From Bacillota bacterium (lineage in GTDB: Bacteria > Bacillota > Proteinivoracia > UBA4975 > VEMY01), in NCBI GenBank assembly GCA_009711825.1, contig VEMY01000013.1:1-43237 (forward strand): a DNA stretch of 43,237 nucleotides, written 5' to 3'. Position 1 is the stretch's first letter; each line of letters starts with the position of its first letter. Made by a program: the position numbers and the translations under genes. This document shows positions 12,452 through 31,013 of this stretch, one piece after another. The notes under the pieces were generated by a model. The model was not told the DNA's origin. It was given only the letters and a program-made list of their open reading frames with translations, and ran no database searches.

Positions 12452-12509
12452 TGTAACCAGCTACTATAAGCTTGATATAATACTTAACTCATAATTGGGG
12501 GTAGAACAT

Positions 12510-13490
12510 ATGAATGCAGCAATAACCGGAGTTGGCTATGCCCTGCCGGACCAGGTTCTCACCAATGCCCAGTTGGAGCAGATGGTGGAGACTGATGACG
12601 CCTGGATAGTGCAGCGGACTGGAATCCGTGAACGGCGGATTGCCGGCCCCGACATTGCCACCTCGGATCTGGCCTCGAAAGCAGCGGAAAGCGCAATGAC
12701 CGCCGCTGGAGTGAGGGCAGAAGATTTGGATCTAATCATTGTCGCGACAGTTACTCCCGACCATGCGTTTCCATCCACTGCCTGCCTGGTTCAGCGCAAC
12801 TTAGGTGCGTGGAAGGCCGCTGCCTTTGATCTCGAGGCGGCCTGCACCGGCTTCATCTATGGTTTGTCGGTGGCAGAGCAGTTTATCCGCACCGGCACAT
12901 ATAAGCATGTGCTGGTGATTGGCGCCGAGACGCTTTCTAAGATTACTGATTACACAGACCGCAACACCTGCGTGCTCTTCGGCGATGGCGCTGGCGCTGC
13001 GGTGCTCAGCGCCTATGAAGAGCAAGGTTTGCTGGCCCTGGATATCGGTGCCGACGGTAGGGGTGGCGAGTTATTGGTGCAGCAGGCCGGCGGGTCACGA
13101 AAGCCAGCGAGCCCGGAAACGCTTGCCGCCCGGGAGCATTTCATCCAGATGCATGGCCGGGAAGTGTTTAAGTTTGCCGTGCGGGTTTTAGGTGAAACAA
13201 GCGAACGGGTGCTGAGTGCTGCAAATGTTGATTCAGGAGAGATTGATTTGCTGATACCCCACCAGGCCAATCTGCGGATTATCGATTCGGCCTGCAAGCG
13301 CCTGGGCATTGACAGAGAAAAAGTGTTTGTTAATCTGGACCGCTATGGCAATATGTCTGCGGCCTCAATCCCGGTTGCTCTGGCGGAAGCGGAGGCACAA
13401 GGAAAACTAAAAAAAGGTGATCGTATTTTATTGGTTGGGTTTGGCGGCGGCCTCACCTGGGGCTCGGCGCTTCTAAACTGGGTTAAGTAG
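12510..13490 (+). CDS. fabH: 3-oxoacyl-ACP synthase III (FabH)
   Basis: A 326-residue enzyme that starts fatty acid synthesis by condensing acetyl-CoA (or branched acyl-CoA) with malonyl-ACP. The Cys-His-Asn triad is visible: C112 in LEAACTGF, H251 in IPHQANLRI and N281 in YGNMSAAS. The N-terminal ITGVGYALPD and the C-terminal GFGGGLTWGSALL are typical. ATG 12510 follows TGGGGGTAG; the in-frame GTG upstream lies in the ribosome site. It is the first gene of the operon, 11 bp before fabK. Clostridial operons often have plsX before it and acpP after it; neither is here. Confidence 0.97.
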   Translation: MNAAITGVGYALPDQVLTNAQLEQMVETDDAWIVQRTGIRERRIAGPDIATSDLASKAAESAMTAAGVRAEDLDLIIVATVTPDHAFPSTACLVQRNLGAWKAAAFDLEAACTGFIYGLSVAEQFIRTGTYKHVLVIGAETLSKITDYTDRNTCVLFGDGAGAAVLSAYEEQGLLALDIGADGRGGELLVQQAGGSRKPASPETLAAREHFIQMHGREVFKFAVRVLGETSERVLSAANVDSGEIDLLIPHQANLRIIDSACKRLGIDREKVFVNLDRYGNMSAASIPVALAEAEAQGKLKKGDRILLVGFGGGLTWGSALLNWVK

Positions 13491-13501
13491 GGAGGTATTT
13501 G

Positions 13502-14446
13502 ATGATTAAGACTGACATAACAGAAATGTTGGGAATTCGTTATCCCCTGTTCCAAGGCGGTATGGCTTGGTTGGGCACCTGGGAGTTGGCTGCGGCTGTG
13601 TCCGAGGCCGGCGGCCTGGGGATTATCGGCGCTGGCAATGCGCCCCCCCAGTGGGTGGCGGAGCAGATTGATTCGTTACGGGCCAGAACAGAGAAACCCT
13701 TTGGCGTCAATGTAATGCTGCTTTCGCCCCATGCGGCGGAAGTGATGGATGTGGTGATTGAGAAGCGGGTGCCCGTTGTCACCACCGGCGCCGGTAATCC
13801 CGGCCCCTGGCTGGAGCGCTTGCAGGCAGTGGGCTCCAGGGTGTTTCCGGTGGTTGCTTCGGTGGCCCTGGCGGTGCGCCTGGCCCGAATGAATGTGGAC
13901 GGCCTGATCGCTGAAGGCGGCGAGGCCGGCGGCCATGTGGGCGAATTATCGACTATGTCTTTGGTGCCCCAGGTGGTTGATGCAGTGGAAGTGCCGGTGT
14001 TGGCCGCCGGCGGCATTGCCGATGGACGCGGTGTGGTTGCTGCCCTTGCCCTGGGCGCCCAGGGTGTCCAGGTTGGGACCCGTTTTGTCTGTGCCGAAGA
14101 GTGTATTGCCCATGAAAATTACAAGCAGATGATCATTCGCTCCCGGGACCGGGATGCTGTGGTATCGGGACGGAGTACCGGCCATCCGGTGCGCTGCCTG
14201 AAAAACCGGTTTTGGCGGGAGTTTACTCAGTTGGAAAAACAGGGCGCCGACACAGCTGAATTGGAAAAGCTGGGCGGCGGCAAATATTACGCGGCTGCCA
14301 TCGAGGGCGATGTGGAGTCCGGCAGCGTGATGGCCGGGCAGGTGGCAGCAATGGTGAATCAGGTGCAGCCTGCCAGCGAAATCGTGCAGCAACTCTTTGC
14401 CCACGCCCGGAGTCGCATCCACGGATTGGGGGAATTAGTCCGATGA
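13502..14446 (+). CDS. fabK: enoyl-ACP reductase II (FabK), FMN-dependent
   Basis: A 314-residue TIM-barrel flavoprotein of the nitronate monooxygenase/FabK superfamily. It performs the last step of each elongation round, reducing trans-2-enoyl-ACP with NAD(P)H through FMN. Typical landmarks are YPLFQGGMAWLG at the N-terminus, the FMN phosphate-binding AEGGEAGGHVG (about residues 136-146), VLAAGGIADGRG and GAQGVQVGTRF. Position in a fab operon separates it from nitronate monooxygenases. ATG 13502 follows AGGGAGGT. Its stop overlaps fabD (ATGA). FabK replaces FabI, which usually means low triclosan sensitivity. Confidence 0.95.
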   Translation: MIKTDITEMLGIRYPLFQGGMAWLGTWELAAAVSEAGGLGIIGAGNAPPQWVAEQIDSLRARTEKPFGVNVMLLSPHAAEVMDVVIEKRVPVVTTGAGNPGPWLERLQAVGSRVFPVVASVALAVRLARMNVDGLIAEGGEAGGHVGELSTMSLVPQVVDAVEVPVLAAGGIADGRGVVAALALGAQGVQVGTRFVCAEECIAHENYKQMIIRSRDRDAVVSGRSTGHPVRCLKNRFWREFTQLEKQGADTAELEKLGGGKYYAAAIEGDVESGSVMAGQVAAMVNQVQPASEIVQQLFAHARSRIHGLGELVR

Positions 14447-15360
14447 GTATCGCCTTTGTTTTCCCTGGCCAGGGCGCCCAGTACTTGGGCATGGGCCGGG
14501 AACTGGCACTGAGCAGTAAATTGGTGATGGAGTACTTTGAGCGGGCCGATGCGGCCCTGGGGTTTTCCCTCAGCAAGCTATGCTGGGAGGGACCTTCTGA
14601 AGATCTGACCCTGACAGAAAATGCCCAGCCGGCAATTCTGACCATGAGTTGTGCCGCGGCCGCCCTGGCCCGGGAGCAACATGTGCATCCGGCGGCAGCT
14701 GCCGGCCTCAGTCTGGGGGAATACAGCGCGCTGGTCACTGCCGGTATGCTGGATTTCGAAACGGCTGTTAAGCTGGTGGCTAAGCGGGGACGCTATATGC
14801 AGCAAGCAGTTCCGGCGGGCACCGGCGGCATGGCAGCTGTTTTCGGCTTGGATGATGAAGCTGTTTTGGAAATCTGTCAGCGCTCCGGTGGCGTGGTGGA
14901 ACCGGCCAACTACAACTGCCCGGGGCAGATTGTTATCTCCGGTGAACAGGTGGCGGTTGCAGAAGCCGTCGAGCTGGCCAAAGAAAAGGGCGCCCGCCGG
15001 GCCATGGCCCTGGAAGTCAGCGCGCCTTTCCATAGCTCCATGTTACAACCCGCCGCCGAGAAACTGGCTGCCGACTTGGCTGAACTTGAGTTTTCTGAGC
15101 CTGAATTCCCGGTGCTCTCCAATGTGGATGCCCGGCCGGTGACTGTCGAGAACGTCCGGGAGCTTCTGGCAAAACAAGTTGCCAGTCCGGTGCTCTGGCA
15201 ACAATGTGTGGAGAAATTGGCGGCAATGGGGATCACAACTCTGGTGGAGGCAGGCCCGGGGCGGGTGCTGTCCACTCTGGCCCGGAAGATTGACCGCAGT
15301 CTCAAGACCAAAAAACTGGAAGTTCCAGAAGATCTGGAGCAATTGCGGGAGGAATTTTAA
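14443..15360 (+). CDS. fabD: malonyl-CoA:ACP transacylase (FabD)
   Basis: A 305-residue transacylase that moves malonyl from CoA to ACP, supplying the extender unit. The N-terminal [14 protein letters not shown] is diagnostic. The catalytic Ser90 lies in the nucleophile elbow [10 protein letters not shown], and His197 in APFHSSML completes the dyad. Q10 in the PGQG motif belongs to the oxyanion hole. The length is normal. ATG 14443 overlaps the fabK stop and its own TAA overlaps the fabG ATG (TAATG), so translation is coupled on both sides. Confidence 0.97.
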
Positions 15361-16100
15361 TGCTCAGTGAAAAAACAGCGCTGGTCACCGGCGCCAGCCG
15401 CGGCATTGGCCGGGAAATTGCCCTGGCCCTGGCAGCTGACGGGTTCAAAGTCGCTGTTAATTATGTGGCCAGCGCCGATGCCGCCAATGCTTTGGTGGCA
15501 GAAATTAAAGAGCAAGGCGGCGAAGCGGCTGCTTTTCAGGCCGATGTCGCCAACTTTGAGCAGGCGGGCAAACTGGTGGAGCAAACCATCAGCCAGTTTG
15601 GGCGTCTGGATGTTCTCGTCAACAACGCCGGAATTACCCGGGACGGCCTCTTGATGCGTATGTCTGAGGAGGACTGGGATCAGGTGCTGGCCGTAAACCT
15701 CAAAGGCTATTTCAACTGTTGTCGGGCGGCGGTGCGCACGATGCTCCGTGCCCGCGCCGGGCGGATTATCAATGTCGGCTCCGTCGTCGGCATCCGGGGC
15801 AATGCCGGCCAGGCCAATTACTCTGCGGCCAAGGCCGGGGTCATGGGACTGACAAAATCCCTGGCCCGGGAGTTGGGGAGTCGCGGCATCACCGTCAATG
15901 CGGTGGCGCCGGGCTTCATTGAGACCGACATGACCAAAGTTTTGCCTGACGATATTAAGGATAAACTGAAAGCAGATATTCCGTTGGGACGCCTGGGCGC
16001 GCCTGCGGATGTAGCGGCCCTGGTCAGATTTTTGGCCGGACCAGGGGCGGAATATATTACCGGCCAGGTTATTGCCGTCGATGGCGGCATGGCCATGTAG
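15360..16100 (+). CDS. fabG: 3-oxoacyl-ACP reductase (FabG)
   Basis: A 246-residue short-chain dehydrogenase that reduces 3-oxoacyl-ACP to (R)-3-hydroxyacyl-ACP with NADPH. The cofactor motif is GASRGIG (residues 11-17) and NNAG is at 88-91. The catalytic tetrad N113, S141, Y154 and K158 is present (VGSVVG, YSAAKAG). PGFIETDMT and the C-terminal [12 protein letters not shown] are typical of FabG. ATG 15360 is shared with the fabD stop (TAATG). A 13-bp gap with its own GGGGGAGA site leads to fabF. Confidence 0.96.
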
Positions 16101-16113
16101 GGGGGAGAAGAAA

Positions 16114-17355
16114 ATGAAACGCGTAGTAATTACCGGCATGGGGGCCGTTACACCCCTAGGCCATGATGTTGAAACAATGTGGAAGGGCCTGGTGGCAGGC
16201 AAAAGCGGTGTCGCTGAAGTGACCCATTTTGACACCAGCGAATTCACCACCAAAATCGCTGCCGAAATCAAGGATTTTGATCCAACCGAGCATATGCACC
16301 GCAAAGAAGCGAAGCGCAGCGATCCCTTTGTCTGGTATGCCTTGGTCGCTGCCCGCCAGGCCTGGAAGCAGTCGGGTCTGGAAGCTGCGGAACTGGATCC
16401 CGGCCGCATCGGCGTCATGGTCGGTTCCGGCATCGGCGGCATCACCACCTTCGAGCAGCAATACGATATGTATAAATCCGGCGGCGCCCGGCGCATCAGC
16501 CCGTTTTTCGTGCCGATGATGATTAGCAATATGGCAGCGGGTAATATCTCCATCGATTTGGGGGCCCAGGGTCCGGTGAGTTCTGTGGTCACCGCCTGCG
16601 CCACCGGCACCAATGCGATTGGCGACGCCTTCCGTTCCATTGCCCGCGGCGATGTGGATGTTATGATTGCCGGCGGCAGCGAAGCATCAATTACTCCCAT
16701 GGGCATGGGCGGCTTTTGCGCGGCCCGGGCCCTTTCCACCCGCAATGATGAGCCGGAAGCGGCCAGTCGCCCCTTCGACGCCCAGCGTGACGGGTTTGTC
16801 ATGGGCGAAGGCGCTGGTATCGTTGTCATGGAGAGCTTAGAGAGCGCTCAAGCGCGGGGCGCTACCATCCTCGCCGAAATCACCGGCTATGGTTCTGCTG
16901 GCGATGCGTTTCACGTGGTTCAGCCCCATCCCGAGGCAGCGGGCGGCGCCCGGGCCATGGAACTGGCAGTCAAAGAGTCTGGCTGGCAGCCCACCGATGT
17001 AGATTACATCAATGCCCACGGCACCAGCACCGAGTTCAACGACCGGCTGGAGACCACGGCAATCAGGAAGGTCTTTGGCGACCATGCCGATAAGCTGGTG
17101 GTGAACTCCACCAAGTCAATGTTGGGCCACCTCCTGGGGGCCGCCGGCGCCGTGGAGTTTATCGTCTGTATCCTGTCAATCCGGGATGGTTTAGTCCATC
17201 CGACCATCAATCTGACCACGCCGGATCCCGACTGCGATCTGGATTATGTCGCAGAAGGCGCCCGGAAAGCGCCGGTTCGCCGTGCAATCACTAACTCCCT
17301 TGGGTTCGGCGGCCACAACGCCACTTTGGCCGTTGCCGCCTGGGAGGATAAATAA
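16114..17355 (+). CDS. fabF: 3-oxoacyl-ACP synthase II (FabF)
   Basis: A 413-residue elongating ketosynthase that condenses acyl-ACP with malonyl-ACP. The Cys-His-His triad is C162 (TACATGTNAIG), H302 (NAHGTSTEFND) and H339 (SMLGHLLGAAG). The start RVVITGMGAVTPLG and the end NSLGFGGHNATL are family hallmarks. ATG 16114 follows GGGGGAGA; the earlier in-frame ATG at 16072 lies within fabG and is rejected. The stop TAA overlaps fabZ (TAATG). As no fabB or fabA is seen, any unsaturated fatty acids would have to be made by other means. Confidence 0.97.
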   Translation: MKRVVITGMGAVTPLGHDVETMWKGLVAGKSGVAEVTHFDTSEFTTKIAAEIKDFDPTEHMHRKEAKRSDPFVWYALVAARQAWKQSGLEAAELDPGRIGVMVGSGIGGITTFEQQYDMYKSGGARRISPFFVPMMISNMAAGNISIDLGAQGPVSSVVTACATGTNAIGDAFRSIARGDVDVMIAGGSEASITPMGMGGFCAARALSTRNDEPEAASRPFDAQRDGFVMGEGAGIVVMESLESAQARGATILAEITGYGSAGDAFHVVQPHPEAAGGARAMELAVKESGWQPTDVDYINAHGTSTEFNDRLETTAIRKVFGDHADKLVVNSTKSMLGHLLGAAGAVEFIVCILSIRDGLVHPTINLTTPDPDCDLDYVAEGARKAPVRRAITNSLGFGGHNATLAVAAWEDK

Positions 17356-17804
17356 TGCTGGACCGGGCGAAGATTAAAGAGATTATCCCCCATCGGGAAC
17401 CATTTCTGCTTTTGGACACAGTTACTGAACTAAAATCCGGCCACAGCGCCACGGGTAATTATTATGTGGATCCCGAGGCCGACTGGTTCCGGGGTCACTT
17501 CCCCGGTTATCCAGTGTTCCCCGGCGTTTTGCAGGTAGAATCCCTGGCCCAGCTGGGGGCGGTGGCAATCCTCTCTCAACCGGAGATGGCAGGCAAGCTT
17601 GCGCTCTTTGCCGGTTTGGAATCTGTGCGTTTCCGGCAGCAGGTATTGCCGGGGGCTACATTGAATCTTACAGTGGAGATAGTCAGGGCCCGCGCCAGTT
17701 TTGGCGTCGGTCAGGGCAGCGCCAGCGTCGACGGCAAGACCGTTCTCGAGTCGTCCCTGAAATTCGCCCTGGTTGCTGGAGGTAATAATGATGAAAATCG
17801 ATGA
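17355..17804 (+). CDS. fabZ: 3-hydroxyacyl-ACP dehydratase (FabZ)
   Basis: A 149-residue hot-dog-fold dehydratase that converts (R)-3-hydroxyacyl-ACP to trans-2-enoyl-ACP. The catalytic His48 lies in FRGHFPGYPVFPGVL and the acidic partner Glu62 in VESLAQLG. The N-terminal IIPHREPFLLLD is typical. ATG 17355 overlaps the fabF stop, and the gene end overlaps the accB start by 14 bp. In many clostridial operons fabZ sits between accB and accC; here it precedes accB, a small change of order. Confidence 0.96.
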   Translation: MLDRAKIKEIIPHREPFLLLDTVTELKSGHSATGNYYVDPEADWFRGHFPGYPVFPGVLQVESLAQLGAVAILSQPEMAGKLALFAGLESVRFRQQVLPGATLNLTVEIVRARASFGVGQGSASVDGKTVLESSLKFALVAGGNNDENR

Positions 17805-18255
17805 GCTGGTAAAACTGATAGAAGCGGTGCGCACCAGCAATTATGATGAATTTACGTTGGAGACCGGCGATGTTAAACTCACACTGCGCCGGGGAGGCAA
17901 AGTGGAAGTTGCGAGCGCTCCCGTCTCCGCGCCGGCGCCAGCGCCGGAGACGCCGAGTTCCAATCCGGCCCCGGCTACACCTGCTCCCGTTGAGCAGCCC
18001 CGGGAGGAGGGGTTAATTGAAGTGACGGCGCCGATGGTGGGCACTTTTTACCGGGCGCCCGCCCCGGATGCTGACCCCTTTGTGGAGCCGGGCACCGTTG
18101 TCAAGCCCGGTGACACCCTGTGCATTTTGGAAGCGATGAAATTGATGAACGAGATTCAGGCCGAAACCGGGGGCGAAGTGGTGGAAGTCGCGGTGGAAAA
18201 CGGCGAACTGGTGGAATTTGGTCAGTTGCTGTTTACCCTGCGGCCGACGAAATGA
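17791..18255 (+). CDS. accB: biotin carboxyl carrier protein of acetyl-CoA carboxylase
   Basis: A 154-residue BCCP that carries the carboxylated biotin between AccC and AccA-AccD. An N-terminal helical domain (1-40) is followed by a Pro/Ala-rich flexible linker (about 42-72) and the biotinyl domain (75-153). The biotin acceptor is K117 in EAMKLMNEI. The start is one of two tandem ATGs; 17791 (spacing 7 from GGAGGT) is preferred over 17788. It overlaps fabZ by 14 bp and accC by 4 bp (ATGA). Biotin ligase is not in the window. Confidence 0.96.
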
Positions 18256-19592
18256 AGCGCGTACTAATCGCCAATCGGGGGGAGATTGCCCTCAGGGTAA
18301 TCCGGGCCTGCCAGGAACTGGGTCTGGAAACAGTGGCAGTCTATGCGCAGGGGGACGAAGAGTCGCTGCACGTGCGGATGGCCGACGCCGCCTATTGCAT
18401 CGGCCCTGCCCCTGCAACCCAGAGTTACCTGAATATGCAAAACATCCTCTCGGTGGCTGCCGGAACTGATTGTGACGCTATTCACCCCGGCTACGGATTT
18501 TTAGCGGAGAATGTTACCTTTGCTGAGCTCTGCGCCTCCTGTGGCATCACTTTTATCGGGCCGCCTGCCGGCGCCATCGAGGCCATGGGGAACAAGGATC
18601 AGGCCCGTAAGACAATGGCTGCCGCCGGAGTGCCGGTGGTTCCCGGAACCTCGGGGCTTAAAGACGCGGAATCGGCGTTACAGGAGGCAGAGAAGATTGG
18701 CTATCCTGTGCTGCTGAAAGCCGCCTCCGGTGGCGGCGGCAAGGGCATGCGCCTGGTGGATGCGGCCGAACAATTGCCCCGGGCCCTGGAAATGGCCCGG
18801 TCCGAGGCGGAGCAGGCCTTCTCCGATCCCACTGTATATATGGAGAAATTCGTTACAAAACCCAGACATGTAGAGATTCAGGTCCTTGCCGACAACCATG
18901 GCAATGTGATACATTTGGGCGAGCGGGAATGTTCGGTGCAGCGCCGCCACCAGAAGCTGGTGGAGGAGGCGCCCTGCCCGGCCCTGACCCCGCTGATGCG
19001 GGATGCCATGGGCGAGGCGGCTGTTAAAGCGGCCCTGGCTGTCAACTACAGCGGCGCCGGCACCGTTGAATTTTTGCTGGATGCCGAGGGGAACTTTTAC
19101 TTTATGGAAATGAATACCCGTATTCAAGTAGAGCATCCGGTTACAGAAATGATCACCGGTATCGATTTGGTGCGGGCGCAATTACAGGTGGCGGCCGGCC
19201 GCAAGCTGACTTGGAGTCAGGAGGACATCAAATTCAACGGCTGGGCCATCGAATGCCGGATTAATGCTGAGGACCCGGAACATAATTTCCGTCCAGCGCC
19301 TGGGAAAATAACCAGCTGGCTTGCCCCGGGCGGGCCCTGGGTGCGGGTGGATGGAATTGCCTATGAAGGGTACCGGGTATTGCCCCATTACGACTCGATG
19401 ATTGCAAAACTAATTGTCTGGGGACGCAACCGGGACGAGGCGATTGCCCGGATGAACCGGGCTCTGAATGAGACGGAAGTGGAGGGGATACCTACCACAA
19501 TTCCGCTGCATCTGGAGATTATGGACAATCGGGAGTTTAAAAGCGGAACCTATGACACAGGACTGCTTGAACGCATGCTGAACAGGAGGTGA
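18252..19592 (+). CDS. accC: biotin carboxylase subunit of acetyl-CoA carboxylase
   Basis: A 446-residue ATP-grasp enzyme that carboxylates biotin on AccB using ATP and bicarbonate. Visible landmarks are the N-terminal [28 protein letters not shown], the ATP-binding glycine loop [21 protein letters not shown] and the catalytic [15 protein letters not shown]. The size is standard. ATG 18252 overlaps the accB stop (ATGA); longer upstream extension runs out of frame through accB and is rejected. It is followed 5 bp later by accD. Confidence 0.97.
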
Positions 19593-19597
19593 AAAGC

Positions 19598-20446
19598 ATG
19601 GCTTTGTTCAGGAAGGAGAAATATACCAAGATAACACCCCGGACTTCCACCGTGGAGATGCCGGGCGATATTGCCAACAAATGTCCCGGCTGCAAGGCCG
19701 TGCTGATTGCCCGGGAGCTGGAAAAAAATATGCGGGTGTGCAACAAGTGTGGCCATCATTTTGGCCTCAAGGCCTGGGAACGGATTGAGCAGGTTACCGA
19801 CCAGGGTAGTTTCAAGGAACTGAATAGCCACCTTGTTTCCGAAAACCCGCTGGAGTTTCCCGAATACGACCAGAAATTAGCCAAGGCCCAAAAGAACAGC
19901 GGCCTCAATGAGGCAGTGGTAACCGGCCATGGCACAATTGGCGGCATGCCCGCTTATGTAGGGGTGATGGCCCCGGAATACATGCTGGGCAGCATGGGTT
20001 CGGTGGTGGGCGAGAAATTGGCGCGGATGCTGGACCTGGCAGCCGACCATCAGACGCCGGCGATAATTTTCACGGCCTCTGGCGGCGCCCGGATGCAGGA
20101 GAGCATTTTCTCCCTGTTTCAGATGGCCAAGACCAGCGCCGCCCTGGCACGACTGGCCGAGAAGGGCGCGCTCTATATTTCCGTGCTCACCGATCCTACA
20201 ACCGGCGGCGTCACCGCCAGTTTCGCGATGCTCGGCGATATAAATCTGGCTGAGCCCGGCGCCCTGATTGGGTTTGCCGGTCCCCGGGTAATTGAACAGA
20301 CCATCAAGCAGCAGCTACCCGCCGGTTTCCAGCGCTCGGAGTTCTTGCTGGAACACGGGATGCTGGATATGGTGGTGCATCGGCACCAAATGAAAGAAAC
20401 TCTCGCCGGATTGCTGAAGTTGCATGGGGGTGTGGCCAATGGCTGA
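19598..20446 (+). CDS. accD: acetyl-CoA carboxyltransferase subunit beta
   Basis: A 282-residue subunit that, with AccA, transfers the carboxyl group from biotin to acetyl-CoA to form malonyl-CoA. An N-terminal four-Cys zinc ribbon is present (C29, C32, C48, C51), followed by the crotonase-like carboxyltransferase core with TASGGARMQES, TDPTTGGVTASFAMLGD and GFAGPRVIEQT. ATG 19598 lies 6 bp after AGGAGGTG; the GTG at 19589 is part of that site. The end overlaps accA by 8 bp. Confidence 0.97.
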   Translation: MALFRKEKYTKITPRTSTVEMPGDIANKCPGCKAVLIARELEKNMRVCNKCGHHFGLKAWERIEQVTDQGSFKELNSHLVSENPLEFPEYDQKLAKAQKNSGLNEAVVTGHGTIGGMPAYVGVMAPEYMLGSMGSVVGEKLARMLDLAADHQTPAIIFTASGGARMQESIFSLFQMAKTSAALARLAEKGALYISVLTDPTTGGVTASFAMLGDINLAEPGALIGFAGPRVIEQTIKQQLPAGFQRSEFLLEHGMLDMVVHRHQMKETLAGLLKLHGGVANG

Positions 20447-21386
20447 TTTTGATGTGCAACTGAATCAATTACAGGATAAAATCCGCGATTTGCAGAAGTT
20501 TGCCCGGGAAAATGAACTGGACCTCAGCCATGAGATCAAAGCCCTGGAAGAAAAGGCCGCCGATATCCGGGCCAAACTCTATGCCAATCTGGAACCCTGG
20601 CAAAAAGTACAATTGGCGCGGCATATCAAGCGACCGTCTACATTGGACTATATAAGCATGATTTTTACCGATTTTTATGAACTCCATGGCGACCGCCTGT
20701 TCCGGGATGACCCGGCGTTGGTGGGCGGTATTGCCCGCCTCGGCGATACACCGGTGACGGTTATAGGCCATCAGAAGGGTCGGGACACCAAGGAGAATAT
20801 CAAGCGCAATTTCGGCATGCCCCATCCCGAGGGGTATCGCAAGGCGCTGCGTCTTATGGAACAGGCAGAGAAATTCCGCCGCCCCGTGATTTGTTTTATT
20901 GACACCCCCGGGGCCTATCCCGGGCTTGGCGCCGAAGAACGGGGCCAGGGCGAGGCAATTGCCCGCAATTTGCGGGAGATGGCGACCTTGCGCACCCCAA
21001 TAATCAATCTGGTCACTGGCGAAGGCGGCAGCGGCGGTGCCCTCGCCCTGGGCGTGGGTGACAGCTTATTGATGCTGGACAACAGCATTTACTCGGTTAT
21101 TTCCCCCGAAGGCTGTGCCGCCATCCTCTGGAAGGATGCCAGCCGGGCCAAAGAAGCAGCCGGCGTCTTGAAGCTCACCGCCCTGGACCTACAAGAATTG
21201 GGCGTGGCCGACGAGGTTATCCCCGAGCCGATGGGCGGTAGCCACAAAGACTGGCAGGCAACAGCAGCAGCCGTCAAAGAAGCCCTCGGTCGGCATCTGG
21301 ATATCCTGGGCGATATCCCCAGCGAAAAACTTTTGGAGCGCCGCTGGCGCAAACTTGCCCAAATCGGCCGCTGGCAAGAACACTAA
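20439..21386 (+). CDS. accA: acetyl-CoA carboxyltransferase subunit alpha
   Basis: A 315-residue partner of AccD. A helical N-terminus (about 1-60) precedes the core with RHIKRPSTLDYI, GHQKGRDTKEN, FGMPHPEGYRKALRLM, IDTPGAYPGLGAEERGQ and GEGGSGGALALGVGD, all standard for AccA. ATG 20439 follows GGGGGTG inside accD. It is the last gene of the ten-gene operon. A terminator lies about 110 bp downstream after a short repeat-containing spacer. Confidence 0.97.
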   Translation: MADFDVQLNQLQDKIRDLQKFARENELDLSHEIKALEEKAADIRAKLYANLEPWQKVQLARHIKRPSTLDYISMIFTDFYELHGDRLFRDDPALVGGIARLGDTPVTVIGHQKGRDTKENIKRNFGMPHPEGYRKALRLMEQAEKFRRPVICFIDTPGAYPGLGAEERGQGEAIARNLREMATLRTPIINLVTGEGGSGGALALGVGDSLLMLDNSIYSVISPEGCAAILWKDASRAKEAAGVLKLTALDLQELGVADEVIPEPMGGSHKDWQATAAAVKEALGRHLDILGDIPSEKLLERRWRKLAQIGRWQEH

Positions 21387-25721: not shown

Positions 25722-26396
25722 TTGAAACTGTCGACCTTTTCAATTACGGCCCGTTGCCCGCAAACCGGGCGGGTCGGCGTCGCTGTGGCCACCGCCAGCA
25801 TGGCGGTAGGGGCGTTGTGCCCAGTGGTTGTGCCGGAAATCGGAGCAGCGGCGACCCAGGCCTGGGTCAATCCTTTATTGGCGGAGACTGCGGTCCGCTA
25901 TCTTGCCGACGGCCGGGATGCGGAAACAGCCTTGGAACTGGCCCTGAAGAAGGACAGCGATTGTCAGTATCGCCAGTTGGCAGTGGTGCCGGTTTCCGGG
26001 GCACCGGCAGCCTGGACGGGCGGAAAATGCGACCCCTTTGCCGGCCAGCATCTCGGTGAGGAGTGGGTGGTATTGGGCAATATGCTGAAAGGGATCCAGG
26101 TCCTGGATGCGGTCCATGCTTGTTTTGCCGCCGGCGCCGATATGGAGCTGTCTCAAAGACTGCTCAGGGCGCTGGAAGCCGGGGTTCAGGCTGGTGGCGA
26201 CCGGCGGGGACTGGAATCGGCGGCTCTGATTGTGGCCGATGGGCCAGAATTTCCCTATGTGGACCTGCGGGTGGATTGGCATGAGCAGCCGGTGGCTGAG
26301 TTGCGGCGCCTCTATAATCTATGGAATAAACGGGTGCTACGCCATTACTCCGCGCTTCAGTCCCGGTTCAGCGATTATCGGGCGGCAGAATGTTGA
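25722..26396 (+). CDS. DUF1028 family protein (Ntn-hydrolase-like fold)
   Basis: A 224-residue protein of the DUF1028 family, recognised from STFSITARCPQTGRVGVAVATASMAVGALCP, IGAAATQAWVNP, DGRDAETALELAL, the nucleation WTGGKCDPFAGQ and GNML. The family has an Ntn-hydrolase-like fold and is suspected to hydrolyse amide or acyl bonds, but activity is unproven. TTG 25722 follows GGAGGGGAG and gives the conserved N-terminus. It is likely cotranscribed with the YlbF gene. A strong promoter for the next gene overlaps its stop codon. Confidence 0.85.
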   Translation: MKLSTFSITARCPQTGRVGVAVATASMAVGALCPVVVPEIGAAATQAWVNPLLAETAVRYLADGRDAETALELALKKDSDCQYRQLAVVPVSGAPAAWTGGKCDPFAGQHLGEEWVVLGNMLKGIQVLDAVHACFAAGADMELSQRLLRALEAGVQAGGDRRGLESAALIVADGPEFPYVDLRVDWHEQPVAELRRLYNLWNKRVLRHYSALQSRFSDYRAAEC

Positions 26397-26421
26397 CACT
26401 GTTTTAGCAGCACTATACAAT
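26393..26421 (+). promoter_or_regulatory. strong sigma-A-type promoter of the GNAT-fusion operon
   Basis: A consensus TTGACA (26393-26398) and TACAAT (26416-26421) are separated by exactly 17 bp. The -35 box overlaps the DUF1028 stop codon. Expected start near 26428. Confidence 0.75.
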
Positions 26422-26424
26422 TAA

Positions 26425-26504
26425 CTGGAGCAGGCAACTGCTTCCAGAAGGTAGCACAGGGTCGGGTGATGCCGGCCCTTAGTCTTTTATGCGAGGTGTC
26501 AGTT
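26425..26504 (+). promoter_or_regulatory. hairpin-containing leader of the GNAT-fusion operon
   Basis: Two hairpins lie between promoter and ATG 26505. The first is 26425-26447 (CTGGAGCAG / CTGCTTCCAG, one bulge, with a GCAA loop of the GNRA type). The second is 26458-26479 (AGGGTCGG / CCGGCCCT, one wobble, loop GTGATG), followed by TTAGTCTTTTAT. The second could be an intrinsic terminator or attenuator, or simply the terminator of the DUF1028 gene. The predicted start (26428) cuts into the first stem, which weakens the riboswitch idea. No known riboswitch class is recognised. Confidence 0.45.
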
Positions 26505-29500
26505 ATGACAGTAAAAATTGTCGATTATGATCACAGTTATGCCGCCGGCGTCGCCCAGATGTGGAATGAGAGCGATGCCGCCTGGCCCTGGAGCTTTACC
26601 GGCGGTATCCCCATGACAGCCGAATTTGTCCGGGATTGGATGGATGATACAGATTACATATCATTGCAGGTGGCGGTGGAGCAAGAGCAGGTGTTGGGTT
26701 TTTGCCTGGTCACTGTTTACCCCAACGAACGGGATTGTTGTTATGTTCAGCTCCTCAATGTCAGTCCGGCCAGCCACGGCAAGGGTGTGGGCCGGGATTT
26801 GCTGAAGCGGGCAGTGGAAGCTGCCGCCGCCGGCAATTATCGGCGAATCGATCTCAATACTTGGGCTTCCAACAAAAAGGCGGTACCTTTGTATAAGAAA
26901 TGCGGGTTCTTTTGGCTGGAAGATACCAGTGTATACATGCAGAATTTTGTGCCGGCAATTATGAATACCGATGCCGGCCGGGATTTCTTCGCCCGCCATG
27001 ACTGGTACAGCACAACGGTCCGAGACCTGGATGTGGTCGAAGACAAAGAACAGTTCCATGGCAATGCGAGCTATCGTTACAAATGGCAGGCTGACGGCGA
27101 TGTACTGGAAGTGGTTATCGACCGCGATTCCCAGGCAATCACCGCCCTAGGCACCAAGGAATTCTTCGCTGCTGCCTGGGCAGAACCAAAACCAATGACC
27201 AACAGTCCGCTTCAGGTCTATTGGCGTCTGGAGAACCGAAGTGATCGTGAACTTAGCTACGCCTTGGTGGCCAGCGGTCAAAAGGGAGTTGAAGGTAGCT
27301 TTCAGCAGGGCGGCAATGTTCGCGATGAGTTGGAGTTTTCGGCGGCTTTCAAGATAGGCGAAGAAGCGGGCCCCAGCGATAAGCCGCGGCGGGTTCCAGC
27401 TTCGGTAAGCTCTTCTTTGGTGGTGAATAACCAGCCCCTGCGCCTTGTCACCGGGATTCGGCCGATGCACCCTGTCCAAATTAACACTGGTCCTGAGCAC
27501 CCGGCGGTTGCCAGTGGTAGCGAGACGGTGGTTGTGGTCAACTTGAAAGAAATGGCGGGTAAAGCTGTCCAGGGCAGAGCCCAATTTGCTGGCAGCGGAG
27601 TTGAGGCCAATCCCAAGGAGATTGATTTTTCCCTGTCGGCCCAGGAAACTACTGGAGTGCAGCTGACTATTCGCGGTAGAGAGTCCGGGGTCGGACGCCT
27701 GGTGATCAGCATCCAAACCGATGCCGGGCAGGAGCTGAGCGAGGTCGTGCCTGTAGCGGTACTGGGTAATGCCCCTGTTTGTTACCGCCAAGGTAAAAAG
27801 TTAGTGAGCCAGAATTCCCGCTTACGGGTTGAACTTGATTTGAAAGGCGGCAGAGCAGAGCTCTATGACCGGGCCACGGGTAAACTCGCCCTCGCTGTTT
27901 CGGCGCCGGCAGTGGGGCCAAACTATTGGCCTTCGGAGTTTCTCGGCAGTGAAGGGGAGCCGATTCTAACTACTGAAACTCTAGGCGTGCGTTTCCGCTC
28001 CGTCCACCAGCCAGAACTGGAGGTGGAGCGTCGGGTTTGGCTGCGGGAGGACAGATTGCTGGTTCAAAACCGGCTTTTGAACCGCGGCGCCCGGGAACTA
28101 AAGGTGAGCTTGGCCCAGAATGGCCATCTGGACTGGCTGGGTGGCGAAGAGCATCTCTATTTGCCCCAGGGGGATGAAGTTGTCCATCAGCGAATGGTCG
28201 CTGGGGGGTTTCCTGCTTTCGACAATGAGTTCCCGGATGAGACTGAGTCCATGGCCCAGCATTGGCTGGCTGTTACAATGCCCGGCAGCGGCCAGGTGGG
28301 TGGTTTTGCCTGGACCGGGGCCGCAAAGCATAAACTCTATTGGGGCCAGGCCGAACCCTATTACAATTTGACTATTCCTGCGGGCGAAAGTGTCTCGACG
28401 CCGGAGCTCTATGCAATCTGGGCCAGCGGCGACTGGCGGGCGGTGCAGCGCCATTGGCAGCAGTTAGCCCGCCGTCAGGCAAAGCAATTGCCCCTGCGCC
28501 CGGTAGTTACTATCGATGCGCAAGCGGAAACTGGTGATGGCCAGGAGCTGGCTGTTTCGGTGTATAACCGACGCAACCGGTCGCTCTCCGGCTCCCTGCA
28601 TCTCCGATCCCAGGCTTGTAGCGTTGAGCCTTCGCTGCTGAACGTGAAAGATGCCTGCCGCAAGCATCCCGGCCGCTATCAGTGTACTGTCCGGGGCCGC
28701 ACCGGCCTGGCCTCGGTGGAGGCCGTCCTGGAGACCCCCTTGCTCACCTATCGCCGCACGTTGCCGCTGCTAATTGCTGCCGACGCTCCGGTCCAGATAG
28801 AGAGGGGCGAGACCTGGACACTAAATAACGGCGCGCTTGCGCTGACAGTGTCACCCGAATTTGGCCTCATCACAAACCTGCTGGGCGCAGGAAGCGGACA
28901 GCTGGATAGCAATTGGCCGGAGCCGGCTGCCATTGGCCCGTTGAACCCGTGGTACGGCGGCATTCATCCAGTGCTCTATCCCCTGGGATTCCGGTTCCCG
29001 GGCAAGTTGCACAAGGCCGACCAGGTACAAATGGTGAAAATCGGCAGGTGGCAGGGGATGGAACTCCGCTGGTCCCGGTTTAGCTACGAGCAGTTGGCGG
29101 GGCTGGAACTGCGTGTACAGTATCTGCTTTTGCCCGGGGTAAACGTGCTGGCGGTGGTCCGGGAGCTCCTGAACCCCGCGGGCGTCGCCCTAACCTGCAA
29201 TTGGGGCCTGGCAATGACTCCGGGTAACGCGCCCCAGGCCGTAGGTTACCCCGGCTTTGACGGCAGCAATGAGCGCTTGCGTTTAGGTAATACATTCACC
29301 AGCGTCAACAGCGAGGGGTATCTGGATGTTTATGGCTCCACCCAGCTGCGGGTGGTGACTAGGGAGCGCGTTACCGCCGTCAATTATCAGAACGGCCTGA
29401 TTCTGCAAATCATGGCTCCGACCCCTGTCGCGCTCCAGGGCAACGGCGTACGGCGGGTGGATTATCTGGTCTTTGGCGACCCGGGCCAAGTCACCGAACT

Positions 29501-29528
29501 GACAACATCTCTGGACGGAAGTGAATAA
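26505..29528 (+). CDS. GNAT acetyltransferase fused to large beta-sandwich region
   Basis: A 1007-residue protein without signal peptide or membrane segment, so probably cytoplasmic. Residues 1-150 are a complete GNAT domain with acetyl-CoA motif HGKGVGRDLL (91-100) and the C-terminal NKKAVPLYKKCGFFWLE. A linker with FFARHDWYSTTVRDLD follows. Residues of about 190-430 look like Ig-type beta-sandwiches (GSETVVVVNLKEMAG, TGVQLTIRG). Residues of about 440-640 and 770-1005 resemble galactose-mutarotase-like folds (SRLRVELDLKGGRAELYDRA, NGALALTVSPEFGLITNL). I recognise the first domain only; the rest is inferred from strand pattern. ATG 26505 follows GAGGTG. It ends in a TAATG overlap with an amidohydrolase gene, so both are translated together. 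Confidence 0.8.
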   Translation: MTVKIVDYDHSYAAGVAQMWNESDAAWPWSFTGGIPMTAEFVRDWMDDTDYISLQVAVEQEQVLGFCLVTVYPNERDCCYVQLLNVSPASHGKGVGRDLLKRAVEAAAAGNYRRIDLNTWASNKKAVPLYKKCGFFWLEDTSVYMQNFVPAIMNTDAGRDFFARHDWYSTTVRDLDVVEDKEQFHGNASYRYKWQADGDVLEVVIDRDSQAITALGTKEFFAAAWAEPKPMTNSPLQVYWRLENRSDRELSYALVASGQKGVEGSFQQGGNVRDELEFSAAFKIGEEAGPSDKPRRVPASVSSSLVVNNQPLRLVTGIRPMHPVQINTGPEHPAVASGSETVVVVNLKEMAGKAVQGRAQFAGSGVEANPKEIDFSLSAQETTGVQLTIRGRESGVGRLVISIQTDAGQELSEVVPVAVLGNAPVCYRQGKKLVSQNSRLRVELDLKGGRAELYDRATGKLALAVSAPAVGPNYWPSEFLGSEGEPILTTETLGVRFRSVHQPELEVERRVWLREDRLLVQNRLLNRGARELKVSLAQNGHLDWLGGEEHLYLPQGDEVVHQRMVAGGFPAFDNEFPDETESMAQHWLAVTMPGSGQVGGFAWTGAAKHKLYWGQAEPYYNLTIPAGESVSTPELYAIWASGDWRAVQRHWQQLARRQAKQLPLRPVVTIDAQAETGDGQELAVSVYNRRNRSLSGSLHLRSQACSVEPSLLNVKDACRKHPGRYQCTVRGRTGLASVEAVLETPLLTYRRTLPLLIAADAPVQIERGETWTLNNGALALTVSPEFGLITNLLGAGSGQLDSNWPEPAAIGPLNPWYGGIHPVLYPLGFRFPGKLHKADQVQMVKIGRWQGMELRWSRFSYEQLAGLELRVQYLLLPGVNVLAVVRELLNPAGVALTCNWGLAMTPGNAPQAVGYPGFDGSNERLRLGNTFTSVNSEGYLDVYGSTQLRVVTRERVTAVNYQNGLILQIMAPTPVALQGNGVRRVDYLVFGDPGQVTELTTSLDGSE

Positions 29529-30985
29529 TGCGGGGCTGGTCCTTTGACTTTCTGTATCTCCGGGCGGGACAGGAGCCGATTCCCGGGGGCGCCGTGGTGG
29601 TTGAGGCCGGGGATGTGGTCTGGGCCGGCCCGGCTTCGGGGGCGCCGGTTCGCTGCACACACATGGGCGGAGTGGCGCTGCCGGGGTTTGTGGACGCCCA
29701 TGTCCATCTGACAGCAACTGGCCTTGAGCTCACGGCCCTCAATGCTGGTGAATTTGACAATATCCCTGATTTGCTGGCCGCAATCGGGCGTCAGGTTCCC
29801 GACGTCAGCGGCGTTGTCCGGGTATGGGGTTTTGACCACGACCAGTATCGGGAGGGTCGTTACCCCACCCTGGCAGAACTGGATGCGGCTTGTCCCGACC
29901 ATTTATTATGGATAAACCATATCGAAAGCCATGGCACTTTGGTGAACAGCAAGAGCTTGAACACCCTGGGTGTGGTCAGCAATCATGCCTTGTTGGTGGG
30001 GGTGGAAAACGGCATCGCCCGCCAATTCTTTATGGGCCGCATCACTCAGGAGCAGCGCCGCGCAGGGATCTGGGCGGCGGTGGAACTGGCCTTGGCCCGG
30101 GGGGTGACCAGTATTCACGCAATGGAAGGCGGGCGGCTGTTTCACAACCTGGACATTCTTGCGGTGCAGCAGCTTTTGCCGGAATTGCCAATCGACATTG
30201 TCCTCTACCCCCAGGTTACCGAGGTTGATTACGCTTTGTCTCTGGGCTTGAAGCAAATTGGCGGTTGTCTGCCCCTGGACGGGTCCAGCGGCGTCTACAC
30301 TGCCGCCCTCACAAGCACCTACCACCAAAGCGATGAGCAGGGCCACCTCTATTTTTCCCGGGAGGAGCTGTTGGGCTTTGCCCGGGCTGCCCAGAAGGCC
30401 GGATTGCAGATGGCAATGCATGCCTGTGGCGATGCCGCCATCGATCTGGCCCTGGATGTGATTGAAATTGCCGCACGGGAGTATCCGGCGCCCCTGAGGC
30501 ACCGGATTGAGCATTTCGAAATACCCCGCCGTGACCAGGCGCGGCGCTGCCGGGATTTAAATGTAATCTTATCCATGCAGCCGGCTTTTGACTGGTTCTG
30601 GGGCGGTCCGGACGGGGACTATGCCCGGACATTGGGGCCGGAGCGTTGGCAGGATGTCAATCCCCTGGGTTGGGCCGTTGCGGAGGGCCTGCCTGTGGCC
30701 GGCGGTTCCGACAGCGGCGTTACTCCCCTGAATCCGCTCTTGGGGATTCAGGCGGCCGTCAGCCACCATAACCCTGTTCAGCGGGTGGATGTGGCCCGGG
30801 CCCTGGCGATGTTTACCGAGGATGCTGCTCTGGCGGGCGGCGCCAAGGCTGGCCGGCTTGTGCCGGGCCAACGGGCAAATATTACCGTGCTGAGCGCCGA
30901 CCCCCATACTGAGCCCGTTAATTCCATCCGCTACATTCCCGTGCTCGCCACCTTCGTCGGAGGAGAACTCCGCTACTGTCATTAA
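29528..30985 (+). CDS. YtcJ-like amidohydrolase (amidohydrolase family 3)
   Basis: A 485-residue metal-dependent hydrolase of the amidohydrolase superfamily, YtcJ/NfdA group. The metal ligands are visible: H58 and H60 in GFVDAHVHL, H298 in MHACGDAA, H329 in RIEHFEIP and D395 in GGSDSGVTPLNPL. The C-terminus (GRLVPGQRANITVLSADP) forms the usual small beta-domain. Relatives hydrolyse N-acyl or N-formyl amides. ATG 29528 overlaps the stop of the GNAT-fusion gene, so the two products probably act in one pathway, one adding and one removing an acyl group. A good terminator follows. Confidence 0.9.
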   Translation: MRGWSFDFLYLRAGQEPIPGGAVVVEAGDVVWAGPASGAPVRCTHMGGVALPGFVDAHVHLTATGLELTALNAGEFDNIPDLLAAIGRQVPDVSGVVRVWGFDHDQYREGRYPTLAELDAACPDHLLWINHIESHGTLVNSKSLNTLGVVSNHALLVGVENGIARQFFMGRITQEQRRAGIWAAVELALARGVTSIHAMEGGRLFHNLDILAVQQLLPELPIDIVLYPQVTEVDYALSLGLKQIGGCLPLDGSSGVYTAALTSTYHQSDEQGHLYFSREELLGFARAAQKAGLQMAMHACGDAAIDLALDVIEIAAREYPAPLRHRIEHFEIPRRDQARRCRDLNVILSMQPAFDWFWGGPDGDYARTLGPERWQDVNPLGWAVAEGLPVAGGSDSGVTPLNPLLGIQAAVSHHNPVQRVDVARALAMFTEDAALAGGAKAGRLVPGQRANITVLSADPHTEPVNSIRYIPVLATFVGGELRYCH

Positions 30986-30991
30986 TAAAAA

Positions 30992-31013
30992 AAAACCGCC
31001 TCTGGGCGGTTTT
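30992..31013. terminator. rho-independent terminator, usable in both directions
   Basis: AAAACCGCC, loop TCTG, GGCGGTTTT lies 6 bp after the amidohydrolase stop; leftward it is followed by a long T-run (complement of the A-run at 30987-30995). It also lies 3 bp beyond the stop of the leftward 44-codon gene. Confidence 0.85.

Follow-up and report, generated by a model that had tools for sequence, protein, structure and literature searches.

The window, i.e., the whole stretch of 43,237 nucleotides analyzed within this work (Bacillota bacterium contig VEMY01000013.1), harbors the gene for a 1007-residue protein with an N-terminal GNAT domain, directly followed by the gene for a YtcJ-like amidohydrolase. 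The features of this locus are given in the following, whereby D1 to D5 denote the domains of the tail behind the GNAT domain.

25722-26396: DUF1028 gene, located between the YlbF gene and the GNAT gene
26393..26421, + strand: sigma-70-like promoter TTGACA-17-TACAAT, 11 of 12 consensus positions matched
26505..29528, + strand: gene for the 1007-residue GNAT / tandem mutarotase-like protein, a group B member of its family (open reading frame with ATG start)
26505..26996, + strand: GNAT domain, residues 1-164 (PF00583, conservation, model)
26997..27557, + strand: predicted beta-sandwich D1, residues 165-351 (model; no relative detected by profile comparison)
27558..27776, + strand: predicted Ig-like D2, residues 352-424 (model, profile comparison)
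27777..28487, + strand: predicted mutarotase-like supersandwich D3, residues 425-661 (model, profile comparison)
28488..28793, + strand: predicted Ig-like D4, residues 662-763 (model, profile comparison)
28794..29525, + strand: predicted mutarotase-like supersandwich D5, residues 764-1007, duplicate of D3 (hhalign)
29528..30985, + strand: gene for the YtcJ-like amidohydrolase (PF07969), 485 residues, Cys in place of the bridging Lys
30986..31013, + strand: intrinsic-terminator-like A-tract, GC hairpin and T4 (fold -12.9 kcal/mol; scored under the threshold of the motif scan)

The promoter and the stop codon of the preceding DUF1028 gene overlap, and an alternative GTG start at 26466 would extend the 1007-residue protein by 13 residues. 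The TAA stop codon of the GNAT gene and the ATG of the YtcJ gene have one base in common (29528), whereby a ribosome-site-like stretch (GGAAG) lies upstream of this overlap. Further upstream, a cluster for type II fatty-acid synthesis and acetyl-CoA carboxylase was identified (12495-21386), which is part of the synteny shared with genome G011.

Residues 31-135 of the 1007-residue protein match the GNAT family PF00583 above the Acetyltransf_1 cut-off (E=2e-16), and the Pfam scan revealed no match outside of these residues. An AlphaFold2 model built with 53 family sequences reached a mean pLDDT of 82.3 and a pTM of 0.82, while single-sequence input gave a pLDDT of 30.6. In this model the GNAT region shows strands and helices in GNAT order, with strand 78-86 being followed by helix 95-109, and residues ~165-1007 consist almost entirely of strands, about 19 of which belong to D3. 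For profile comparison, the family alignment was split into five pieces and these were compared pairwise by hhalign, which identified D3 and D5 as an internal duplication (93.9%, E 1.6e-7, 206 columns) and revealed a weak match between D2 and D4, the Ig-like domains each preceding a supersandwich (47.5%); the remaining pairs of pieces gave no match. D3 matched the aldose epimerase profile PF01263 with 64.5% and the beta-galactosidase small-chain profile PF02929 with 56.6%, a level comparable to that of these two accepted relatives when compared with each other as control (64.6%). For D5 the match to the mutarotase profiles was weaker (27% in global mode, 4% in local mode), and D1, D2, D4 and the GNAT piece stayed at background against these profiles (<3%). 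Profile searches with D3, D5 and the whole tail against PDB and Pfam identified no relative, and a Foldseek search of the whole chain against PDB and BFVD returned low-TM matches only, to long chains rich in Ig or sandwich domains, LacZ among them, which were left out of the evidence. As judged from model and profile comparison, the tail is a sandwich domain D1 followed by two copies of a unit of one Ig-like and one galactose-mutarotase-like domain.

With the galactose-mutarotase-like superfamily (PF01263, PF02929) the protein has in common the supersandwiches D3 and D5, but in contrast to that superfamily these domains are duplicated together with Ig-like partners, locate behind a GNAT domain, remain under Pfam detection and lack a near-invariant His. 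No His was found among those columns of D3 and D5 that are invariant or conserved to 90% (residues were not superposed singly), which makes it unlikely that these domains act as epimerases. The highest 19-residue Kyte-Doolittle mean of the protein is 1.44, i.e., no strongly hydrophobic segment is present, and as the GNAT domain begins at the N-terminus there is no sign of export. What the preliminary description had claimed for the locus, namely a strong promoter, a 1007-residue protein with complete N-terminal GNAT domain, a long beta-rich remainder devoid of an export signal and a TAATG overlap with an amidohydrolase gene, was borne out; its view of the remainder as resembling Ig-like and mutarotase-like folds, and with it the expected carbohydrate-related fold, was retained for D3 and, by a weak match, D5, but not for D1, for which no relative was detected.

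Within the GNAT domain and just past its end, where W167 and Y168 are located, conservation is pronounced: T119, W120, N123, K125, A126, P128, Y130, K131, G134, W137, W167 and Y168 are invariant in 53/53 sequences, and position 96 is Gly or Ala throughout the same 53. N123 and Y130 occupy the motif-B positions of GNAT enzymes (Asn and the general-acid Tyr of N..A..YKK.GF). The CoA loop (residues 91-96) of the window protein reads HGKGVG, hence both Gly residues are present, while His91 replaces the Gln or Arg of the Q/R-x-x-G/A-x-G/A motif; in the group A members of the family the loop is mostly HGKKxG. The complete fold, CoA-loop position and catalytic-Tyr position are shared with the GNAT superfamily (PF00583), from which the window protein differs by His91 and by its fusion to about 850 sandwich residues. 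Curated GNAT subfamilies were not reached at their cut-offs, the nearest matches all being far below. Judged by these residues, the family appears to be catalytic, although less clearly so in group A, where the use of CoA is not certain because Lys occupies the usual Gly94. The retention of acetyl-CoA-binding residues across the family, on which the earlier proposal depended, consequently holds for the CoA-loop and catalytic-Tyr positions, but not for position 94 of group A. With this reservation, none of the three refuting outcomes named in the preliminary description was encountered.

In order to keep ordinary GNAT proteins out of the counts, the tail (residues 162-1007) served as family query. 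Relatives were found in 13 of 101 genomes and, in the phylum sample, in 23 of 398, each encoded by an open reading frame of about 1010-1155 codons, and full-length relatives are 20-30% identical to the window protein. An alignment-based scan of named genomes identified 458 loci coding for a relative in bacteria and archaea, so that the window gene is no local oddity but one member of a large family whose whole architecture is conserved across phyla. The best 80 of these 458 loci include Bacillota, Chloroflexota, Armatimonadota, Planctomycetota, Cloacimonadota, Latescibacterota, Zixiibacteriota, Actinomycetota, Theionarchaea, Thorarchaeota and Thermoplasmatota. Protein length at the examined loci is 975-1154 residues, with the exception of a locus from a Halanaerobiales MAG (L071:7965-11096), where the family gene is broken into two frames by a frame change that may be either a mutation or a sequencing error. 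In the phylogenetic tree, group A, composed mostly of Bacillota and Cloacimonadota, separates from group B, which includes the window protein, with a support of 100. Whereas relatives within the window's order have copies of group A, the only copy in the window genome is of group B, which suggests that the window gene was gained laterally. One relative is annotated by NCBI as 'GNAT family N-acetyltransferase' only, a naming that hides 85% of a protein of ~1000 residues. Literature searches for a GNAT-mutarotase fusion yielded nothing relevant, and as far as the literature searched shows, neither the family nor its link to amidohydrolases has apparently been described.

This link was revealed by the gene neighbors. 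In group A, the Bacilli-rich branch, an amidohydrolase of the Amidohydro_2 family (PF04909, e.g., BB4693, PDB 3irs) is encoded directly downstream on the same strand at 35 of the 62 loci with enough flanking DNA, most within 60 bases and ten with a 14-base overlap. Within the phylum sample, PF04909 relatives of this partner type occur in 12/23 family genomes versus 19/375 others (Fisher p=4e-9, with kinship ignored), and 10 of the 11 closest ones reside in genomes which also encode the GNAT-sandwich family; PF04909 homologues outside the family loci show no constant gene context. Given the recurrence at group A loci, the amidohydrolase link is real at the family level. In the window a PF07969 and not a PF04909 gene follows, and the window genome holds no close PF04909 copy. 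Group B outside of Bacillota was searched for a constant neighbor and none was found. Besides the window, L056 is the only family locus with a comparable YtcJ nearby: at this group B locus a 43% identical enzyme is encoded in the same orientation at a distance of 0.7-0.9 kb downstream, with a small GNAT gene lying in between and a gene context unlike that of the window. The coupling to an amidohydrolase, as originally proposed, thus stands for the recurrent PF04909 gene, but a role of the YtcJ type as fixed partner is not supported by genomes G004 and G011.

The YtcJ protein itself matches PF07969 over the full domain with 212 bits against a cut-off of 29.7, and like the YtcJ-like amidohydrolases NfdA, SmELA, 3icj and 3igh it possesses the HxH, two His and the Asp ligand (H58, H60, H298, H329, D395). 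The preliminary description had all metal ligands in place; five are, but the position of the bridging (carboxylated) Lys is taken by Cys247, which aligns to the VKLFVDGS motif of PDB 3icj. The enzyme differs in this respect from the aforementioned ones and belongs to a GGC-x2-DGS subfamily, in which Cys was found in 12/13 compared sequences (the window and 11 of 12 relatives, from L141-L150 and L056, with Asp in the other). D-aminoacylase is known to have Cys-bridged metals. From the Cys at the bridging position it follows that the enzyme may be Cys-bridged or mononuclear. Its best relatives occur in 12/299 genomes of the phylum. In G004 a 59% identical YtcJ directly precedes the M16 peptidase pair, as is the case in the window, and no GNAT gene is present there; G011 retains the order accD-accA-...-SNF transporter-YlbF-YtcJ-...-M16-M16, likewise without the GNAT gene. 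The nearest genomes with a window-type YtcJ, i.e., order and class relatives, carry the GNAT-sandwich gene elsewhere. The DUF1028 gene is also missing from the matching G011 locus, for which reason it may have arrived together with the GNAT gene; among the family loci DUF1028 showed no neighbor link, and the literature search gave no match.

More distant YtcJ homologues at four loci (L155, L156, L157, L159) adjoin lysine 5,6-aminomutase alpha/beta, kce and kal, and the window genome likewise encodes a lysine 5,6-aminomutase alpha subunit (G000:C1:74390-75916). It also holds a weaker mutase relative resembling the ornithine 4,5-aminomutase OraE (G000:C3:26147-27256), and both mutases are taken as pointing to amino-acid fermentation. 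SmELA, characterized as an epsilon-lysine acylase, belongs to the YtcJ-like class (PMC10699109). With this context, the mutase and the class of SmELA considered, it is a fair guess that the window enzyme hydrolyzes N-acyl-lysine or a comparable N-acyl amine, possibly as a feeder enzyme of lysine fermentation, and the Cys-type subfamily beside lysine fermentation genes offers a second testable lead. These observations, together with the gene orders of G004 and G011, are also in line with the idea that the GNAT and YtcJ genes simply reside on one transcript, whereby YtcJ would serve as a salvage hydrolase for N-acyl-lysine or N-acyl-amino acids, supplied by the SNF-type sodium symporter encoded upstream, while the job of the GNAT protein would be unrelated. 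This is a serious possibility, although one that falls short of being probable, as it conflicts with the Cys-subfamily YtcJ downstream of the second group B gene in the other context of L056, and with group A pairing independently with another amidohydrolase family. The specific GNAT-YtcJ coupling is weaker than the family-level amidohydrolase link, and the arrangement in the window is most plausibly a junction specific to this lineage, the partners of which may or may not cooperate.

The explanation preferred here combines a cytoplasmic acetyltransferase and its substrate-holding tail with a PF04909 partner in Bacilli and a lineage-specific YtcJ pairing; with all parts taken jointly it is held tentatively, at slightly under an even chance. 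Architecture, family, conservation and gene order were observed directly, and the following chemistry, substrate and cooperation are inferred. The 1007-residue protein would represent an undescribed GNAT family and act in the cytoplasm as an acetyltransferase dependent on acetyl-CoA. Considering conservation and GNAT chemistry, acetyl-CoA would bind to loop 91-96, with Tyr130 as proton donor for the departing CoA, and the conserved set W27/W120/W137/W167/Y168 would line the acceptor site. As the duplicated Ig-like and mutarotase-like unit lacks the epimerase His, the tail most likely holds rather than catalyzes, presenting to the GNAT site an amine that is bulky and probably contains sugar, whereby sugar binding is suggested by the predicted fold. 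In Bacilli, the PF04909 amidohydrolase as usual operon partner is expected to hydrolyze the same compound or a derivative, hence the GNAT protein and the downstream hydrolase probably act on the same compound; the duplicated tail and this neighbor are a lead to the substrate and possibly to a pathway. In the window, the probably laterally acquired GNAT gene would have come to lie with its own promoter directly before the older YtcJ gene, which would thus be co-transcribed, its Cys-type product most likely being a hydrolase of N-acyl amines or N-acyl-amino acids. A more far-reaching version, in which GNAT-mutarotase proteins and amidohydrolases would constitute an undescribed two-enzyme pathway, widespread in bacteria and archaea, for making or recycling a cytoplasmic amino-sugar conjugate, with the partner subfamily varying by branch, appears doubtful.

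PF04909 enzymes include lactonases and decarboxylases. For this family the hydrolysis of an N-acyl bond is not a given, which argues against an acylation-deacylation pair, in which GNAT would acylate a compound of amino-sugar or glycan-like type, from which the amidohydrolase would cleave this or a related acyl group for salvage or transient protection. Amidohydrolase neighbors from two different families, the overlap of both genes in the window and the mutarotase-like domains would fit such a pair, but the partner differs by branch, is absent at 27/62 group A loci with room for it and at nearly all group B loci, and, without regulation, a cycle acting on a single bond would be futile; this proposal is consequently regarded as unlikely. 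A role in detoxification or self-protection, with the tail recognizing an amino-sugar-bearing antibiotic which the GNAT domain would acetylate, is most improbable: a patchy spread with high frequency in soil Bacilli and Paenibacilli, the apparent lateral gain and profile neighbors including streptothricin and aminoglycoside acetyltransferases speak for it, as does the family gene preceding an ABC-2-type transporter operon in two Theionarchaea, but the nearest curated matches miss their cut-offs by far, no defense family was matched and a stable PF04909 pairing is atypical of resistance genes. An anti-phage defense system was rejected, as there was no match to any PADLOC model.

In both Theionarchaea (L054:10919-13569, L059:10895-13545) the family gene overlaps the operon it precedes, which encodes an ATPase and two ABC-2-type permeases. 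At a further locus, L136:5465-12033 (genome G312), two family genes reside in tandem and are followed by a PF04909 gene.
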